From Candidatus Brevefilum sp. (GTDB lineage: Bacteria; Chloroflexota; Anaerolineae; Anaerolineales; Anaerolineaceae): DNA of 57,745 nt. The stretch spans positions 1 to 57,745 of the forward strand of contig JARGGB010000010.1 in assembly GCA_029210815.1 (NCBI GenBank), given 5' to 3'. The notes under the pieces were generated by a model. It did not search any database. It saw only the letters and a program-made list of their open reading frames with translations, and had not been told where the DNA came from. A program made the position numbers and the translations under genes. Positions 38,292 to 46,465 of the stretch are shown here, piece by piece; within the stretch, counting starts at the first letter, position 1; every line of letters starts with the position of its first letter.

Positions 38292-40502
38292 ATGGCTTAT
38301 ATCGGGAAATCCTTTAAGAGATTTGACGTCAAAGATAAAGCGACAGGCGAAGCCCTTTACCCGGGTGATTACAACTTGCCTGACCAGGTTCATATGAAAA
38401 TTCTTTTTGCCAATCGCCCTCACGCGATCATCAAATCAATGGATATATCTGAGGCAGAGGCGTACCCGGGCGTATTGGCAGTTTTGACAGCCAAAGACGT
38501 CCCTGTAAACGAGTATGGATTGATCATGCCAGATCAACCTGTCTTGTGCGGACCGGGATCCTCCAAACCTTATGCCGATCGGGTGCGGTTTGTTGGTGAT
38601 CAGGTTGCCCTGGTGATTGCTGAAACTGAGGAAATTGCAGAACAAGCGCGAGATCTAATCAAGGTTTCTTACGAAGACCTGCCGATTGTGGACAGCATCG
38701 ATAAAGCGCTTTCAGAAGACCCTGTTTTACTGCATCCAGAATTGGATTCAAATATTTTTTGTCATTATCAAATTCGGAAAGGTGATGTAGATCGGGCTTT
38801 TGAACAATGTGATGTCATCGTTGAAGGTGAATACCATACACCAGTTCAGGAGCATGCCTATCTACAGCCTGAAGCAGGCATTGCATATCTCGATGAACAA
38901 GACCGGATCACCGTTGTTGTAGCCGGGCAATGGACTCATGAAGATCAAGAACAAATCGCGCATGCCCTTGATCTCCCGCATGAAAAGGTGCGTGTAATCT
39001 ACCCAGCCATTGGCGGCGCTTTTGGCGGACGTGAGGATATGTCTGTTCAAATTGTTCTGGCATTGGCGGTGATGCGACTGCATGAACGCGGCATTGATCG
39101 TCCAGTCAAGATTGTGTGGAGCCGCGAGGAATCCATCATTGGGCATCACAAGAGGCATGCCTATCGACTTAAAGGGAAATGGGGGGCAACCAAGGATGGA
39201 AAGATCCTGGCTGCAGAGGTGGATATTTTTGCTGATGGCGGCGCTTATGCCTATACTTCAACAAAAGTCATGGGAAACGCTTTTTTACAGTGCGCTGGCC
39301 CTTATGAAATCCCGAATGTAAAGGTCAATGCGGATGCTATTTATACAAACCATGTCCCAGGTGGTGCTTTTCGAGGATTTGGTGGGCCGCAAGGGGCTTT
39401 TGAGGCAGAGATGCAGGTGAATAAACTTGCTGAAGCCCTTGACATGGATCCTGTGGAACTTCGCATGAAAAATTTAATCGAAGATGGCTCTATCTTATCT
39501 GTAAATACGGAGGTACCGAAGGGTGTAACAATAAAACCGGTAATGAAAGTTTGTGCTGAACACGCAGGGTGGATAGAAACAATTGATGGATGGCTTGCAC
39601 CTCCAAAAATGGAAAATGATGGCGTCATAAAACGTGGACGTGGAACTGCCTGTGCATTTAAGAATGTTGGCTTTTCTTATGGTGCGCCAGAAACAAGCCA
39701 TGCAATTGTTGAGTTGTTCGGTGAGGAAGAAATTGACCGGGTTGTTCTCCATCATGCTGGTGCTGATGTGGGACAGGGTGCGCATTCAGCCTTTAAACAA
39801 ATTGCCGCAGAGACTTTGAGTGTTCCGATCGAGAAAATTGAGTTAATTGCATCGGATACAGCATTTACAGGCAATTCTGGCAGCTCATCGGCTTCTCGGA
39901 TGACATTTATGGGTGGTAATTCTGTTAAAGGTGCAGCAGAAAAGGCACTAGAAAAATGGCGATCTGAGGAACGGCCGGTTATCGTTGAATACACTTATCA
40001 CGCGCCTCCCACAACCCATATGGACCCTTTGACCGGTGAATGTTATCCAAACATCACCTATGGTTATGTGGCTGAGGTGGTTGATTTGGAAGTCGACACG
40101 GAAACTGGAGAAATCCGGCTGTTAAAAGTTTACTGTGCTGATGATGTAGGGAAAGCGATCAACCCAATGCAGGTTGTAGGTCAAATTGAAGGCTGTATTG
40201 TTCAGGCTGCAGGCTATGTTTTGATGGAAAAATTCATCGAAAAAGATGGGTATGTTGTAACGGATATGCTATCTAAATACTTGATCCCAACGGTTAAGGA
40301 TATTCCTTTTGAGGTTGAATCAATACTCTTGGAATTAGCAGACCCACTTGGACCATATGGCGCACGCGGCATGGCTGAGATGCCCTATCTTCCATTAGCC
40401 CCGGCAATCGTTCATGCCCTTTATGACGCGACGGGTGTTTGGTTCCACGATTTCCCGTTGACACCTGAAAGAGTATTACGAGGTTTGGGAAAGATAAAAT
40501 GA
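38292..40502 (+). CDS. Molybdenum hydroxylase molybdopterin-binding subunit
   Basis: A 736-aa large subunit of the xanthine dehydrogenase/aldehyde oxidase family. It has an a/b hammerhead domain (about residues 15-125), then AIGGAFGGRED, GGAFRGFGGPQGAFE and DVGQGAHSAFKQIAAET. The active-site Glu lies in ARGMAEMPYLP near the C-terminus. Two ATGs overlap or follow the upstream stop; 38292 is preferred because GAGGAG is then 5 nt away (38289 would leave 2 nt). The substrate is unknown; a purine or N-heterocycle is likely from context. It overlaps yqeB by 4 bp. Confidence 0.9.
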   Translation: MAYIGKSFKRFDVKDKATGEALYPGDYNLPDQVHMKILFANRPHAIIKSMDISEAEAYPGVLAVLTAKDVPVNEYGLIMPDQPVLCGPGSSKPYADRVRFVGDQVALVIAETEEIAEQARDLIKVSYEDLPIVDSIDKALSEDPVLLHPELDSNIFCHYQIRKGDVDRAFEQCDVIVEGEYHTPVQEHAYLQPEAGIAYLDEQDRITVVVAGQWTHEDQEQIAHALDLPHEKVRVIYPAIGGAFGGREDMSVQIVLALAVMRLHERGIDRPVKIVWSREESIIGHHKRHAYRLKGKWGATKDGKILAAEVDIFADGGAYAYTSTKVMGNAFLQCAGPYEIPNVKVNADAIYTNHVPGGAFRGFGGPQGAFEAEMQVNKLAEALDMDPVELRMKNLIEDGSILSVNTEVPKGVTIKPVMKVCAEHAGWIETIDGWLAPPKMENDGVIKRGRGTACAFKNVGFSYGAPETSHAIVELFGEEEIDRVVLHHAGADVGQGAHSAFKQIAAETLSVPIEKIELIASDTAFTGNSGSSSASRMTFMGGNSVKGAAEKALEKWRSEERPVIVEYTYHAPPTTHMDPLTGECYPNITYGYVAEVVDLEVDTETGEIRLLKVYCADDVGKAINPMQVVGQIEGCIVQAAGYVLMEKFIEKDGYVVTDMLSKYLIPTVKDIPFEVESILLELADPLGPYGARGMAEMPYLPLAPAIVHALYDATGVWFHDFPLTPERVLRGLGKIK

Positions 40503-41311
40503 CATCCTTTGTCCTGATATGGGGCGGCGGTGATCTTGCCACTGGGGTAGCTCTGAGGTTACATCGTTCAGGCATTCGAGTGCTGGTGGTTGAAACAAAT
40601 CAACCTTTGGCAGTCCGGCGTTCTGTATCCTTTGCACAGGCTGTTTATGATGGTGAAACACAAATTGAAGGCGTGAAAGGTAAACTGATTGGGGAGCCGT
40701 CGGAAATGTCTGCATATTGGGATGCGGGTATTATCCCGGTGATCGTTAACCCGGCATTAGATTTGTTAGAAGAATTTCAACCGCTTGTAATCGTCGACGC
40801 CCGGATGCGGAAAAGGTTTGTTGACCTGCCTCTGGATATGGCGGAAATGGTTGTTGGTCTTGGTCCGGGGTTTGTGGTTGGGGAGAACTGCCATGCGGCT
40901 GTTGAAACCAACAGGGGACATTTTTTAGGGCGTGTTTACTGGGAAGGCAGCCCAGAAGCGGATACGGGGATCCCCGGCAAGGTTGAGTCATACACGAAGG
41001 AACGTGTTTTGCATGCGCCGGCAGAAGGGAAAATCGCAGCCCATGTCAAAATTGGCGAAGCTGTTAAGCAGGGGAATGTCATTTTATCCGTTGATGGTGT
41101 GGCAGTGCCTGCACCCTTTGATGGCGTTGTCCGGGGGCTGATTCATGAGGGTATTAGAGTCCGAAAAGGAATGAAGGTCGGCGATGTTGACCCGAGGCCT
41201 GAGACCTTTCGCTGCTGGACTGTTTCTGAAAAATCCCTTGCTATCGGCGGCGGTGTTCTGGAAGCGATTCTGTCCAGAGAAACAATTCGATCGAAAATTT
41301 GGAACAGGTAA
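40499..41311 (+). CDS. yqeB: Selenium-dependent molybdenum hydroxylase maturation protein YqeB
   Basis: A 270-aa member of the EF2563/YqeB family, which co-occurs with selenium-dependent molybdenum hydroxylases. It begins with a Rossmann-like VLIWGGGDLATGVALRLH motif. The C-terminal half has a biotinyl/lipoyl-like beta repeat region (VLHAPAEGKIAAHVKIGEAV). Its exact reaction is not established. Its presence is the main reason to infer that at least one hydroxylase here uses a labile selenium ligand rather than sulfur. It is coupled by a 4-bp overlap to the preceding gene. Confidence 0.9.
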   Translation: MTSFVLIWGGGDLATGVALRLHRSGIRVLVVETNQPLAVRRSVSFAQAVYDGETQIEGVKGKLIGEPSEMSAYWDAGIIPVIVNPALDLLEEFQPLVIVDARMRKRFVDLPLDMAEMVVGLGPGFVVGENCHAAVETNRGHFLGRVYWEGSPEADTGIPGKVESYTKERVLHAPAEGKIAAHVKIGEAVKQGNVILSVDGVAVPAPFDGVVRGLIHEGIRVRKGMKVGDVDPRPETFRCWTVSEKSLAIGGGVLEAILSRETIRSKIWNR

Positions 41312-41317
41312 TTTTCG

Positions 41318-42658
41318 ATGAAGCTTGCCAAGGCATTGAATCTAAGCTCTGGCGACTCGGTTGCCTTCGCAGGTGCAGGCGGCAAAACAAGCGCCATGAT
41401 TGCCCTTGCAAGAGAGCTTGATCCGCCAGTTGTCCTGACAACAACAACTCATCTGGGTGTGTGGCAGGCTGGATTTGCCGACATCCATATGGTCGTCACT
41501 AAACCGGAAGAAATCCGTTCTGATCTTCTCAATGAAAAGAAAATCATTCTTGTCACCGGTCCGGCAGGGGATGATGATCGTCTGCGTGGTTTGAGCGGGA
41601 AATCTTTAGAGAAATTGCAATTCTTGTGTAAGCAATCCCAGGTGTATTTATTAATTGAAGCCGATGGTGCCAGGCTGCGGCCTGTAAAAGCCCCGGCGCA
41701 TTATGAACCTGTCATTCCCACGGATGTGGATCGAGTGGTCGTGCTTGCAGGTCTGACAGCCTTAGGTAAGCCGTTAGACGAGATTCTTGTTCACCGTCCT
41801 GAAATATTTACAGAAGTTACTGGTCTAAAAGAGAACGAAATTATCAATGCGGAGAATCTTGTGACCTTGTTGGGTTCTGAAGAGGGTGGTTTAAAAGGGG
41901 TACCAGATGATTGCAAGAAGGACTTATTTCTCAACCAGGCTGATGACCTGGTTTTGCAGTTGAATGGCGGTTGGATTGCAAGGAAACTCTTAGATAGATT
42001 TGACCGGGTTCTTGTAGGGTCGATAGAGAAACCCGGATCTTCAGGTGAGATCTTTAGCGTTTTCAGCCAAACGGCAGGTGTAATCCTGGCGGCAGGTGGA
42101 AGCGAACGCTTGAACACCCCCAAGCAGCTCTTAGATTGGCAGGGGAAACCCTTTATTCATCAAGTGGCACAACAAGCCTTAGAAGCCGGCTTAGAGCCGC
42201 TAATCGTGGTCACAGGCGCTTACCACGACCAGGTTGTGCAAGCCCTAGCTGGTTTACCGGCAGAAATTGTTCACAACCCTGATTGGCGGAAAGGACAATC
42301 GACATCGATGAAAGCAGGATTGAAGGCGCTCCCTGAGGCATGTGGCAGTGTGATGTTTTTGTTGAGTGACCAGCCGCAAATCTCATCTGAATTAATTCGA
42401 CAATTAATGGATCGCTATTTCCAAAACAGAAATGCCATAACCGCACCGATGGTGAACGGTCAGCGCGGAAATCCTTTATTATTTGACCAGGCTGCTTTCT
42501 CAGCCCTTGCTGAGGTCAAGGGCGATCGGGGAGGGAGGGCAGTGATCAACCGGTTTGAGGTGGATTGGCTGCCCTGGGTAGACAGGCGGATTTTGCTGGA
42601 CGTGGACCGTGAGGGGGATTACGAGCGGCTCTTGAAAGCATATTCTTTATCCGAATAA
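41318..42658 (+). CDS. YqeC-MocA fusion: selenium-cofactor protein plus molybdenum cofactor cytidylyltransferase
   Basis: A 446-aa two-domain fusion. Residues ~1-240 match YqeC (P-loop-like FAGAGGKTSAM, then TTTTHLG and LIEADGARLRPVKAP). Residues ~250-446 match MocA-type NTP transferases (VILAAGGSERLNTPKQLLDWQGKP, FLLSDQPQIS and QRGNPLLFD), which make molybdopterin cytosine dinucleotide. In E. coli these are separate genes (yqeC and mocA). The fusion suggests the selenium-related step and the cytidylylation step act on the same cofactor. It lies 6 bp after yqeB. Confidence 0.9.
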   Translation: MKLAKALNLSSGDSVAFAGAGGKTSAMIALARELDPPVVLTTTTHLGVWQAGFADIHMVVTKPEEIRSDLLNEKKIILVTGPAGDDDRLRGLSGKSLEKLQFLCKQSQVYLLIEADGARLRPVKAPAHYEPVIPTDVDRVVVLAGLTALGKPLDEILVHRPEIFTEVTGLKENEIINAENLVTLLGSEEGGLKGVPDDCKKDLFLNQADDLVLQLNGGWIARKLLDRFDRVLVGSIEKPGSSGEIFSVFSQTAGVILAAGGSERLNTPKQLLDWQGKPFIHQVAQQALEAGLEPLIVVTGAYHDQVVQALAGLPAEIVHNPDWRKGQSTSMKAGLKALPEACGSVMFLLSDQPQISSELIRQLMDRYFQNRNAITAPMVNGQRGNPLLFDQAAFSALAEVKGDRGGRAVINRFEVDWLPWVDRRILLDVDREGDYERLLKAYSLSE

Positions 42659-43143: not shown

Positions 43144-44292
43144 TTATTCATCTCGAAGAATTTCGACTGCCTTTTGCATTGCGGCAATACCAGAAGGATC
43201 CTCTGTCACGGGGTAATCGGGCGCCAGGGGAAAGCTCACCCCGGGTATCCACCAGCGACCGCTTGTAACATGGATGCTGGCGCCATCTTGCAGATCGAAG
43301 ATGTACTGAATACTGGTCTTCCCGTAGGTTGACGTCCCAATAATTAGTGCACGCTCGTGTTTTTTCAAAGCGCCTGCGACGATTTCGGCAGAACTGGCAG
43401 TGTTCCCATTCACCAGGAGAACCATTGGCAATTTGGAAAATTCACCTTCATTGCTCACTTTGAAAATTTCCACCTTTTGATCATTAAATTGCTGATAGAG
43501 CACCTCGCCGTCCATCAGGAACAACTTCACTATTTCAACGCCAGCTTCAACCAATCCGCCGCCGTTATCCCTCAGGTCAAGAACGAGATATTCTGCCCCA
43601 CGATCCTGAAGATCTTTAATTGCGTCACGCATCTCATCGGCCGTGGTTTCAGCAATTCGATTAACCTTTATCAAACCGATATCTGCAGCTTCTGGCAAGA
43701 GATTCCAGCTGACCGTGGGTAGAGGGAAGTCCTGCCGATCAATGCTGAAATTTAATGTTTGCGATCCTCGTCTGACAGAAATTTGGACCTGCTCGCCGAT
43801 TGGACCGCGAAGGGCAGCAAGTAAATTGATGTCATCTGTGCTTGTTGTGATGGTAAGGTCGTCAACCTCTATCAGGATGTCACCATCCTGAACACCCGCT
43901 TGCAGCGCCGGGGAGCCAGAAAACGGGTAAAGGCGCCAGTTCAGTTCGGTATCTCTTTCCAGACGTACACCAATGCCGCCAAAGCTTCCAGCCAATTCAT
44001 CTGTTTGAATTTCGTGAACTGCTGGTTCCACAAAAAAGGTATAGGGGTCATTGAGGCTTTCAAGCATGCCGCGCACCATCCCGTGCTGTAATTTTTCATC
44101 CGAAGGTAATTCAAAGATTGCGTTTTCTTCTACAATGCTTCGAGCTTGTTTTAATATGCCCAAATCTTCCTGAGCCTGCAAAATATATCGGTGCCCAAAA
44201 TATCCGATCGCCATGGCTAGAAGCACGATCATCACCTGCAGCCCCATGAAAAGCCATTGTCTGACGTTCTCTGGAAGATTTACTTTATTCAT
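43144..44292 (-). CDS. S41-family C-terminal processing protease (CtpA-like)
   Basis: A 382-aa membrane-anchored serine protease acting outside the cytoplasm. It has an N-terminal membrane segment (about residues 14-32), a PDZ domain (about 100-180, with GGIGVRLE and QAGVQDGDILIEVDD), and the S41 catalytic domain. The Ser/Lys dyad is visible as VNGNTASSAEIVAGAL (Ser at about 300-301) and YGKTS (K325). Length is close to the family norm. It is single, divergent from glmS. Confidence 0.92.
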   Translation of the reverse strand: MNKVNLPENVRQWLFMGLQVMIVLLAMAIGYFGHRYILQAQEDLGILKQARSIVEENAIFELPSDEKLQHGMVRGMLESLNDPYTFFVEPAVHEIQTDELAGSFGGIGVRLERDTELNWRLYPFSGSPALQAGVQDGDILIEVDDLTITTSTDDINLLAALRGPIGEQVQISVRRGSQTLNFSIDRQDFPLPTVSWNLLPEAADIGLIKVNRIAETTADEMRDAIKDLQDRGAEYLVLDLRDNGGGLVEAGVEIVKLFLMDGEVLYQQFNDQKVEIFKVSNEGEFSKLPMVLLVNGNTASSAEIVAGALKKHERALIIGTSTYGKTSIQYIFDLQDGASIHVTSGRWWIPGVSFPLAPDYPVTEDPSGIAAMQKAVEILRDE

Positions 44293-44322
44293 CTCTTAAC
44301 TTTCTTGTTTTTCTGAATCAGG

Positions 44323-44328
44323 TATAAT
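44323..44328 (+). promoter_or_regulatory. -10 box of the glmS transcript
   Basis: TATAAT is placed so that transcription would start near 44335, about 60 nt upstream of the ribozyme cleavage site. The -35 region is T-rich but weak. Confidence 0.45.
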
Positions 44329-44393
44329 GTTTTCATTCCATTATACTGATGCTTGAACACGGTGCATAATAATGGATAAATCATTGGGATAAA

Positions 44394-44521
44394 AGCGCCT
44401 GGCCAATCTATTGAAGGATTGGTGACGAGGATGGAGGTTCCCTGGTGCGAACCAGGGCTAACTGGAATAGCTCCAGGAAAATCGAGAGATCGGCGGATGC
44501 CTCCCGCTGCAACGTGCAGCT
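44394..44521 (+). ncRNA. glmS self-cleaving ribozyme
   Basis: A GlcN6P-responsive ribozyme in the glmS leader, recognised by conserved core pieces in order. AGCGCC (44394-44399) has the expected cleavage after A44394. P1 hairpin arms are CCAATC and GATTGG. TGACGAGG follows, then GGAGG (44433-44437), ATCGAGAGATCGGCGG, and GATGCCTCCCG. CGCC at 44396-44399 can pair with GGCG at 44492-44495 (P2.2). GGAGG can pair with CCTCC at 44500-44504. A GCTGCA/TGCAGC hairpin closes the 3' side. About 38 nt forming two extra hairpins lie between GGAGG and the ATCGAG segment, and no clear P4 is seen. It should lower glmS expression when GlcN6P is high. Confidence 0.88.
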
Positions 44522-44623
44522 GTATTCCCATAGCAATAAAAAATAAAAAAAGTCTGAAGCGGTCAATGTGTTTATTGATTTTTAGATCTTAAGCTCAGTT
44601 GTGAGTATTGGAGGCATGCATCT

Positions 44624-46465
44624 ATGTGCGGTATTGTTGGTTACATTGGTGAACAAGATTCGACCCCGATCATTTTAAACGGATTGAAACGGCTTGAATA
44701 CCGTGGGTATGATTCAGCGGGCATTGCTGTTTTGGCTAATGGGCATATCGAGATCCGGCGTGATGCTGGTAAGTTGGCCCACCTGGAAGCCCTGGTAAAC
44801 GAAACACCACTGCATGGCAAAATTGGGATCGGTCACACACGATGGGCGACTCACGGCGAACCCAACGCCAGAAATGCGCACCCGCATATCGGCAGCACGG
44901 GCGATTTTGTTGTCGTCCACAACGGCATTGTTGAAAATTATCTTGCCCTTAAAGAAGAATTGGTCGCTGAAGGCACGATTTTTAAATCTGAAACGGATAC
45001 TGAGACCATTGTCCACCTGGTTGAAAAGTTTTATTCAAACGAGGGGTCCCTGGTTGAGGCTGTCAGGAAAACGTTGCGGCAGTTGAAGGGCGCGCACGGC
45101 ATCGTCGTGATGTCTTCGCGCGAGCCGGACAAAATTGTTGCTGCTCGTGTTGGAAATGCAGGCGGTGTTGTGATTGGACTGGGCGAGGGAGAAAATTTTG
45201 TGGCTTCGGATTTACCTGCCATCCTCGAGCATACACGCCGCGCTGTCTTCCTTGAATCACACCAAATGGCTTTGATCACGAAAAATAAAGTGGAGGTTTC
45301 GGATATTCAAGGCAATCCTGTTAAATTGCAGGTACATAACATTGCCTGGGATCCGGTAGCGGCTGAAAAAGGCGAATACCGACATTTTATGCAGAAGGAA
45401 ATTCATGAGCAGGTTCGCTCACTGACCGATACCCTAGCTGGCAGGGTGGATTTTGATCGGGGCGAAGTTTATCTTCACGAATTAAATCTGGATACGGAAA
45501 AAGCAAAGCGCATAAAAAAGATCATTATCACCGCCTGCGGGACAGCAGCACATGCAGGTATGGTCGGTAAGATTTTAATTGAAAGAATTGCCAGGATACC
45601 CGTTGAGGTGGCAATTGCCTCAGAGTTTCGCTATGCGGACCCAATTGTGGATGAAAATACCGTCGTGCTTGCCATCAGTCAATCAGGTGAGACGGCAGAT
45701 ACCCTGGCGGCGATGGAAGAGGGGCGTAAGAAAGGCGCAATCCTGTGGTCGAATGTCAACGCAATTGGTTCCCAAGCAATGCGTGTTGCAGACGGCTGCA
45801 TATCGATGCAGGTCGGACCGGAGATTGGGGTCGCATCGACCAAGGCATTCACGGCACCGTTAATTGACATGTACTTGCTGGCGGTTTACCTGGGCGACAA
45901 ACGCGGGGTCCTGGATGAGGACAGACGTTATTCATTGGTGAATGATTTGATCGGAATCCCGGCACTTGTGGGTGAGTGCTTGAGCCGTGAACAGGACGTT
46001 GTTGAATTAGCGCATAAATTCAAAGATACAAGTCACATGCTCTATTTGGGTCGTGGGATCAATATGCCCGTTGCTTATGAAGGTGCCCTTAAGCTCAAGG
46101 AGATTTCGTATATCCATGCGGAGGGGTACCCGGCTGGGGAGATGAAGCACGGACCGATTGCCTTGATTGATAAAAGCATGCCAGTGTTGGCACTTGCACC
46201 GCTGGACCCCTGGTACGACAAGATGATCAGCCAGATTGAGCAAGCCATGGCACGTGGTGGAGAGGTGATAGCGGTTGCTACGGATGGGGATCAACGCATT
46301 CCCGATTTGACGGATAATATTTTGTGGGTGCCGAAAACGCCCTGGCTGTTAAGCCCGGTGGTGACCAGCATCCCCTTACAGCTGTTTGCCTATCACATTG
46401 CTGCCTTGTTGGGGCTGGATGTGGATCAACCACGAAATTTAGCAAAAAGCGTCACGGTCGAATAA
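44624..46465 (+). CDS. glmS: Glutamine-fructose-6-phosphate aminotransferase (isomerizing)
   Basis: Makes glucosamine-6-phosphate from fructose-6-phosphate and glutamine, the entry to peptidoglycan and amino-sugar synthesis. The 613-aa protein begins MCGIVGYIG, where Cys2 is the glutaminase nucleophile. The N-terminal Ntn glutaminase domain (about 1-240, with HTRWATHGEP) is followed by two SIS isomerase domains (ITACGTAAHAG, ISQSGETADT and GYPAGEMKHGP). It ends with the family-typical LAKSVTVE. A GGAGG lies about 10 nt before the ATG. Regulated by the upstream ribozyme. Confidence 0.97.
   Translation: MCGIVGYIGEQDSTPIILNGLKRLEYRGYDSAGIAVLANGHIEIRRDAGKLAHLEALVNETPLHGKIGIGHTRWATHGEPNARNAHPHIGSTGDFVVVHNGIVENYLALKEELVAEGTIFKSETDTETIVHLVEKFYSNEGSLVEAVRKTLRQLKGAHGIVVMSSREPDKIVAARVGNAGGVVIGLGEGENFVASDLPAILEHTRRAVFLESHQMALITKNKVEVSDIQGNPVKLQVHNIAWDPVAAEKGEYRHFMQKEIHEQVRSLTDTLAGRVDFDRGEVYLHELNLDTEKAKRIKKIIITACGTAAHAGMVGKILIERIARIPVEVAIASEFRYADPIVDENTVVLAISQSGETADTLAAMEEGRKKGAILWSNVNAIGSQAMRVADGCISMQVGPEIGVASTKAFTAPLIDMYLLAVYLGDKRGVLDEDRRYSLVNDLIGIPALVGECLSREQDVVELAHKFKDTSHMLYLGRGINMPVAYEGALKLKEISYIHAEGYPAGEMKHGPIALIDKSMPVLALAPLDPWYDKMISQIEQAMARGGEVIAVATDGDQRIPDLTDNILWVPKTPWLLSPVVTSIPLQLFAYHIAALLGLDVDQPRNLAKSVTVE

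Follow-up and report, generated by a model that had tools for sequence, protein, structure and literature searches.

The window analysed here is the whole of a 57,745 nt stretch from Candidatus Brevefilum sp. (contig JARGGB010000010.1), and it carries a glmS gene preceded by a structured leader. The gene, at 44624-46465 on the plus strand, codes for a glutamine--fructose-6-phosphate transaminase of 613 aa (TIGR01135, 785.2 bits, cut-off 418.05). A gene for a C-terminal processing peptidase lies divergently at 43144-44292 on the minus strand (TIGR00225, 224.7 bits, cut-off 218.6) and is outside the system described here. YqeB and a YqeC-MocA-like fusion, proteins of selenium-dependent molybdenum cofactor maturation, are encoded upstream of the glmS locus, at 40499-42655.

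The glmS leader of the window

A scan of the whole window with Rfam release 15 gave only one match at the gathering level, the glmS ribozyme family RF00234 at 44383-44587 (+), with 43.2 bits against a gathering threshold of 37 and an E value of 8e-7. A first-pass annotation, made from the letters alone, had proposed a glmS ribozyme upstream of glmS in a Chloroflexota-like genome and had named the RF00234 score as the check. The score, the TIGR01135 assignment of the downstream gene and the source of the DNA, which belongs to Chloroflexota, all bear it out. The proposed extent of 44394-44521 ends in P3, and the Rfam match continues for 66 nt more. The lineage model R1, built from 23 lineage sequences of glnA type only, scores the window copy at 96.7 bits.

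The start codon is placed as proposed, an ATG at 44624 behind a GGAGG Shine-Dalgarno sequence at 44610-44614 (+). The promoter is only half supported, since a -10-like TATAAT, likely that of glmS, is present at 44323-44328 (+) and in 11/11 same-genus glmS loci aligned, the window included, but a consensus scan of 44200-44700 shows no complete sigma-70 promoter. The TATAAT box is within GTATAATG (44322-44329), which faces CATTATAC (44339-44346). The two form a perfect inverted pair spanning window positions 44322-44346, with 9 nt between them. Thus each strand has a -10-like box in the interval that separates glmS from the divergent peptidase gene.

The core strings are in the order and pairing first described. 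The predicted self-cleavage site lies between A-1 at 44394 and G1 at 44395 (+), as placed by the RF00234 alignment and the residue numbering in excerpts of PMC7125110, and it agrees with the cut after A44394 proposed earlier. The P2.2 5′ strand follows at 44396-44401 (+), with C2, G3, C4 and C5, a U6 bulge and G7 in the canonical register, and pairs with 44491-44495. P1 is a hairpin of 7 pairs at 44402-44423 (+), formed by 44402-44408 and 44417-44423. The core segment GACGAGG, residues 26-32, is at 44424-44430 (+) and includes the P2.1 5′ strand CGA (44426-44428), which pairs with the 3′ strand UCG at 44482-44484 (+). The P2 5′ strand GGAGG at 44433-44437 (+) pairs with 44500-44504, so that 44491-44504 (+) holds both the P2.2 and the P2 3′ strand. 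Every one of the P1, P2 and P2.2 pairs claimed to be intact is a standard pair, and those of P2.1 are standard as well. P2.1 is near-invariant, and covariation therefore cannot test it. ACGAGG is invariant in alignment A2, whose 58 rows, chosen from 67 parsed, had been selected for containing ACGAGG.

Two hairpins are inserted in the P2 loop, P2a at 44440-44457 (+), with 7 pairs and a GCGA (GNRA) loop, and P2b at 44462-44476 (+), with 5 pairs; the P3 hairpin, also of 5 pairs, is at 44506-44520 (+). Helices equivalent to P2a, P2b and P3 covary in the glnA-type set described below (helices 5, 6 and 7, respectively). An additional helix, P0, joins UGGGA at 44385-44389 (+), on the leader side of the cut, to UCCCA at 44526-44530 (+) in J3/4, and as a helix class it is backed by permutation over many loci. 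The P4 region at 44531-44609 (+) is degenerate in the window copy.

The window copy shares with the RF00234 ribozymes of the Bacillus and Thermoanaerobacter leaders the cleavage dinucleotide, P1, P2, the P2.1/P2.2 double pseudoknot and the position before glmS. It differs from them by P0, which involves the leader before the cut, and by P2a and P2b. The glmS copies of the genus differ further in that the P4.1 arm is not detected and in having a sister copy at glnA. In a simple hairpin search an arm resembling P4.1 and capped by a GNRA-type loop was found in 13/14 same-genus glnA copies and in 0/11 same-genus glmS copies, the window included. Additional core stems outside Firmicutes have a parallel, as McCown and colleagues in 2011 reportedly described Deinococcus-Thermus glmS ribozyme variants with such stems and with changed supporting elements. 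The P4/P4.1 arm is peripheral, in that a 66-nt core without it has been studied, according to excerpts of PMC7125110.

The score of 43.2 bits exceeds the gathering threshold only modestly, and this, together with the P4.1 arm that was not detected, could mark the window copy as a decayed or inactive relic. Such a reading is hardly credible. The core is almost constant in the alignment of 11 same-genus glmS loci despite diverging flanks, the core pairs are all standard, and the 66-nt construct without periphery had measurable cleavage in excerpts of PMC7125110. Taken by itself, this genuine glmS ribozyme is a modest variant. Three things escaped the first-pass annotation: the glnA-linked second ribozyme, the additional helix P0 and the lack of a P4.1 arm.

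Gene contexts within Chloroflexota

A second RF00234 match of 46.6 bits, above gathering, is found on another contig of the same genome, in a glnA leader (G000:C88, leader at about 38440-38060, minus strand). Between its end and the start of glnA, which has the same orientation, there are about 90-100 nt. A 277-aa ATPase-like open reading frame was considered as the target of this copy and rejected, as the ribozyme is on the other strand and directly before glnA. The genome's second glutamine synthetase gene, 36% identical, has no such element.

The same two contexts recur in the order. All 73 order-level RF00234 matches precede glmS (44) or glnA (29), which, with the E value of 8e-7, rules out a chance match, and 23 order-level genomes have one glmS-linked and one glnA-linked ribozyme. 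The glnA-linked matches reach the gathering threshold of 37 in 13/29 cases, and the other 16 score 27.8-36.0. The glnA copy of genome G026 has 41.1 bits, and so copies of this kind may already sit in databases, annotated and uncommented. Membership in another Rfam family was also considered and rejected, since the six glnA leaders scanned match RF00234 only. In particular the glutamine riboswitch RF01739 gave no match up to an E value of 0.01 in eight loci (the glnA leader of this genome, five other glnA leaders and two glmS leaders).

Firmicutes are where the class is best known, and its presence in Chloroflexota had been put forward as the surprise. The surprise does not hold. RF00234 is found at an E value of 0.001 in 50/61 order-level genomes, and above the family cut-off in 21/61. 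Model R1 matches 55/60 relatives (85 matches) and 67/301 genomes drawn across the phylum (83 matches, two of which, in G290 and G326, were left out of the loci read). A recent acquisition from Firmicutes along with glmS would fit the better known occurrence of the class there. It is very improbable, and the spread of the ribozyme over many families of the phylum, mostly before glmS and with extra helices, argues against it, if weakly. Two genomes of the window's genus, G014 (98% complete) and G005 (70% complete), show no glmS-class ribozyme by either model, an apparent loss.

Among 153 loci read, the downstream gene is glmS in 104, glnA in 33, ada-eamA in 11 and GOGAT in 2; the remaining three loci precede, one each, a DegT-type aminotransferase gene, a gene identified by eye as that of a MOSC-like protein, and an unassigned gene. 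The ada-eamA loci (family f12) have a fused gene for an AraC-type HTH and a methylguanine methyltransferase, called ada here, and then an EamA transporter gene. This identification was by eye for the 11 loci and by Pfam for one, and in two of them a small open reading frame comes first. As a separate target the ada gene was rejected: glnA is 2.2 kb downstream in 2 of 11 loci read further, and it also follows ada in all 6 of the named ada loci whose DNA extends far enough.

Named public genomes, in a collection that may omit records very near the window's own genome, were searched with an exact pattern for the glnA-type core, which gave 108 stretches. With glnA, glmS, GOGAT and ada as queries, the closest match downstream is glnA for 80 stretches and ada for 11; for 8 it is GOGAT, at a distance of 1.3 kb in one case, for 3 none of the four is found, and 6 stretches were too short. 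By taxon name all 108 are from Chloroflexota or from a group or genus belonging to it, and one is from a genus that NCBI places in another class, Candidatus Aquidulcis. The glnA-type copies depart from the glmS association of RF00234, and are linked instead to glnA, to ada-eamA-glnA or to GOGAT.

The glmS ribozyme is the usual illustration of a ribozyme class that goes with a single gene. The 2011 survey by McCown and colleagues is said to place all but two of 463 ribozymes in glmS mRNAs. No report of the glnA link was recognised in the open-access literature searched; the 2011 survey is outside that search.

A few loci have other contexts. In another class of the phylum, L168 (G070:C334, 30326-30516, minus strand) has a glmS-class ribozyme before a DegT/DnrJ aminotransferase gene (Pfam) and an oxidoreductase-like gene (by eye), and the context looks like amino-sugar synthesis. 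L197 (G043:C53, 15279-15448, minus strand) is the third ribozyme of one genome, of nitrogen type (the glnA and GOGAT ribozymes of the following section) and with a terminator-like hairpin; its downstream genes resemble those of a MOSC-domain protein and a DinB-like protein (by eye). L235, L279 and L312, two of them in Longilinea, are nitrogen-type ribozymes followed by a short open reading frame, and the glnA, glmS, GOGAT and ada queries were not found downstream.

Core register, added helices and terminators of the nitrogen-type copies

In the numbering given by excerpts of PMC7125110, P2.2 consists of C2-G56, G3-C55, C4-G54, C5-G53 and G7-C52, with residue 6 bulged. The window copy has this register, and in 47/81 parsed glmS loci A5 is bulged and U6 pairs with A53. 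The canonical arrangement (C4-G54, C5-G53, residue 6 bulged) is not that of the glnA-type copies. Nitrogen-gene loci have purine 4 bulged, with C5-G54 and U6-A53, in 44/48 cases vs 0/81 glmS loci. These counts leave aside 23 of the 153 classified loci, all of them glmS loci and many from other classes, whose P2.2 letters were not parsed, and include a few parsed letters that look like misreadings.

Rescue data in excerpts of PMC7125110 led to the inference that a P2.2 with its bulge moved towards the centre possibly cleaves much better than a mismatched P2.2, and the shifted P2.2 of this lineage is a natural case of this kind of alternative structure. In the same excerpts, mutations at 5-53 cost about 1000-fold in activity, and so cleavage may be slower with the nitrogen-type core. 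The nitrogen type is also relaxed at residue 26, which is G in 23/33 glnA loci and in 0/11 ada loci; A-1 is read in 30/33 glnA loci. A tree of 100 aligned ribozymes unites 44/45 nitrogen-type copies in a single clade (support 0.91); the loci were hand-picked and the alignment was fitted to the glnA-type model, which may favour this clade. The exception is a GOGAT-linked copy with glmS-like P2.2.

Locus L157 (G154:C114, 37952-38125, minus strand) has a glmS-type P2.2 and a terminator-like hairpin, and precedes a gene whose product has a glutamate synthase domain. Lying outside the nitrogen-type clade, this ribozyme probably represents an independent recruitment.

It might be argued that the nitrogen-type ribozymes (glnA, GOGAT) have switched ligand and form a variant class, sensing a metabolite of nitrogen status and marked by the shifted P2.2 and the relaxed residue 26, with the window copy remaining canonical. 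Gene context does change together with the core (44/48 vs 0/81), and the nitrogen type is one clade. However, the strands 43-45 (UCG) and 28-30 (CGA), identified in excerpts of PMC7125110 as the cofactor-pocket and active-site strands, are unchanged in 23/23 aligned glnA-type copies, and glucosamine-6-phosphate (GlcN6P) is already an effector of enterobacterial glutamine synthetase (excerpts of PMC6316151). A switch of ligand is thus unlikely, and GlcN6P is the more probable ligand of both types.

The glnA-type fold was examined in alignment A3, which holds 23 of 29 glnA copies (L061, L063 and L099 were unparsed, and L041, L047 and L055 are near-duplicates). In these 23 sequences 91.8% of cells are paired, against 55% at most in slid versions, and both-side changes are found in 28/44 pairs vs 16.3 +/- 1.9 in shuffles. 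ACGAGG, UCG and UCAGCGG are invariant.

P0, in which the nucleotides just before the cut pair with J3/4 after P3, is absent from the Rfam structure (RF00234 alignment), and in the A3 pair count it is the weakest helix, with 71.7% of cells. It was followed over 119 of the 130 parsed loci. The complementarity of P0 strands from the same locus is 15.71, vs 12.67 +/- 0.21 when strands are exchanged (0/20000 permutations, n=119). Taken by type, glmS loci (n=75) and nitrogen types (n=43) each give 0/20000. In two shifted controls the observed value was reached in 19548 and 1443 of 20000 permutations, and in a smaller run of 67 loci glnA alone gave 94/20000. P0 is an extra covarying helix in both ribozyme types.

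A further pairing, P5, would join CCCUUCC in J3/4 of nitrogen-type loci to GGAAGGG downstream. Both strings are exact in 57/102 nitrogen-type loci. In the remaining 45 the two strands of a locus match each other better than strands taken from different loci (0/5000), and for the 19 of these with a terminator the same test gives 3/5000.

Many nitrogen-type loci of other genera than the window's have intrinsic-terminator-like hairpins just before the gene, 67/102 of the named loci vs 0.35 in shuffles. In the second set of loci the same test gives 15/33 glnA, 6/11 ada and 0/81 glmS loci, and a looser search gives 13/31 glnA loci, 12/13 loci then unassigned and 5/89 glmS loci. In the window's genus the looser search finds no terminator in 14 glnA loci. 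An antiterminator partner was looked for by eye in the alignment and none is visible. Cleavage by itself does not account for the terminator.

These hairpins suggest another possibility, namely that the nitrogen-type element works chiefly as a free-standing or attenuator RNA, in which the terminator would end most transcripts and the ribozyme would process a small RNA instead of an mRNA leader. The counts in both sets of loci would fit this, as would the family in which ada and eamA intervene between the element and glnA. However, the element precedes glnA or GOGAT genes across families, and in the window's genus, with its 0/14 terminators, the glnA match begins 73-94 nt past the ribozyme match. 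This possibility is therefore rather doubtful. Also somewhat unlikely, to about the same degree, is that the nitrogen-type copies are a distinct class of self-cleaving riboswitch, descended from one ancestral glmS ribozyme and with a re-registered P2.2 joined to the terminator via P0 and P5, which would govern glutamine synthetase and glutamate synthase by cleavage and termination and possibly respond to a ligand other than GlcN6P.

GlcN6P as a possible link between amino sugars and nitrogen supply

The preferred explanation, which is probable, is that both copies are GlcN6P-activated self-cleaving switches, one on glmS and one on glnA. GlcN6P is made by GlmS from fructose-6-phosphate and glutamine, and for the ribozyme class GlcN6P as cofactor, self-cleavage and lower glmS expression are established. 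In Bacillus subtilis the cleaved mRNA is degraded by RNase J. Excerpts of PMC7125110 likewise give the cofactor role, self-cleavage and the lower expression of glmS. The present genome has an RNase J gene (TIGR00649, 578.9 bits).

Judged from their sequences, both copies most likely cleave on GlcN6P. The metabolite would bind the double-pseudoknot core and activate the cut between A44394 and G44395. The glmS mRNA on the 3′ side of the cut, now with a 5′-OH, would then be degraded, probably by RNase J. GlmS output would thus drop when its product is plentiful. The second ribozyme of the genome would act likewise on glnA. In this order an old duplicate of the ribozyme was probably recruited, mainly once, to the genes for glutamine synthetase and glutamate synthase, and through this recruitment GlcN6P would also restrain glutamine supply. 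The terminator that follows the nitrogen-type ribozyme in many relatives outside the window's genus may add transcription attenuation as a second output.

That GlcN6P should control glnA makes chemical sense, because GlmS uses glutamine and because GlcN6P is a feedback inhibitor of enterobacterial glutamine synthetase (excerpts of PMC6316151). The metabolite and the target enzyme are the same in both cases, but the enterobacterial inhibition acts on the protein, whereas control here would act on the mRNA. It would be an RNA counterpart of the classical inhibition. The RF01739 glutamine riboswitch of cyanobacteria similarly provides control by an RNA leader in nitrogen assimilation (excerpts of PMC6316151). 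However, its glutamine aptamer belongs to another family than the glnA leaders scanned here.

A second, conserved target in glutamine synthetase, and sometimes in glutamate synthase, would make the glmS ribozyme a sensor that forms a regulon, one which would link cell-wall amino sugars with nitrogen assimilation. The arrangement of glmS and glnA copies in many related bacteria suggests one RNA sensor for cell-wall sugar and nitrogen supply. Together, the window ribozyme and its glnA sister would have a physiological meaning that can be tested. A direct test is possible in named strains, as the nitrogen-type core is found in Ornatilinea apprima P3M-1, Levilinea saccharolytica KIBI-1, Pelolinea submarina MO-CFX1, Bellilinea caldifistulae GOMI-1, Longilinea arvoryzae KOME-1 and Thermanaerothrix daxensis GNS-1.
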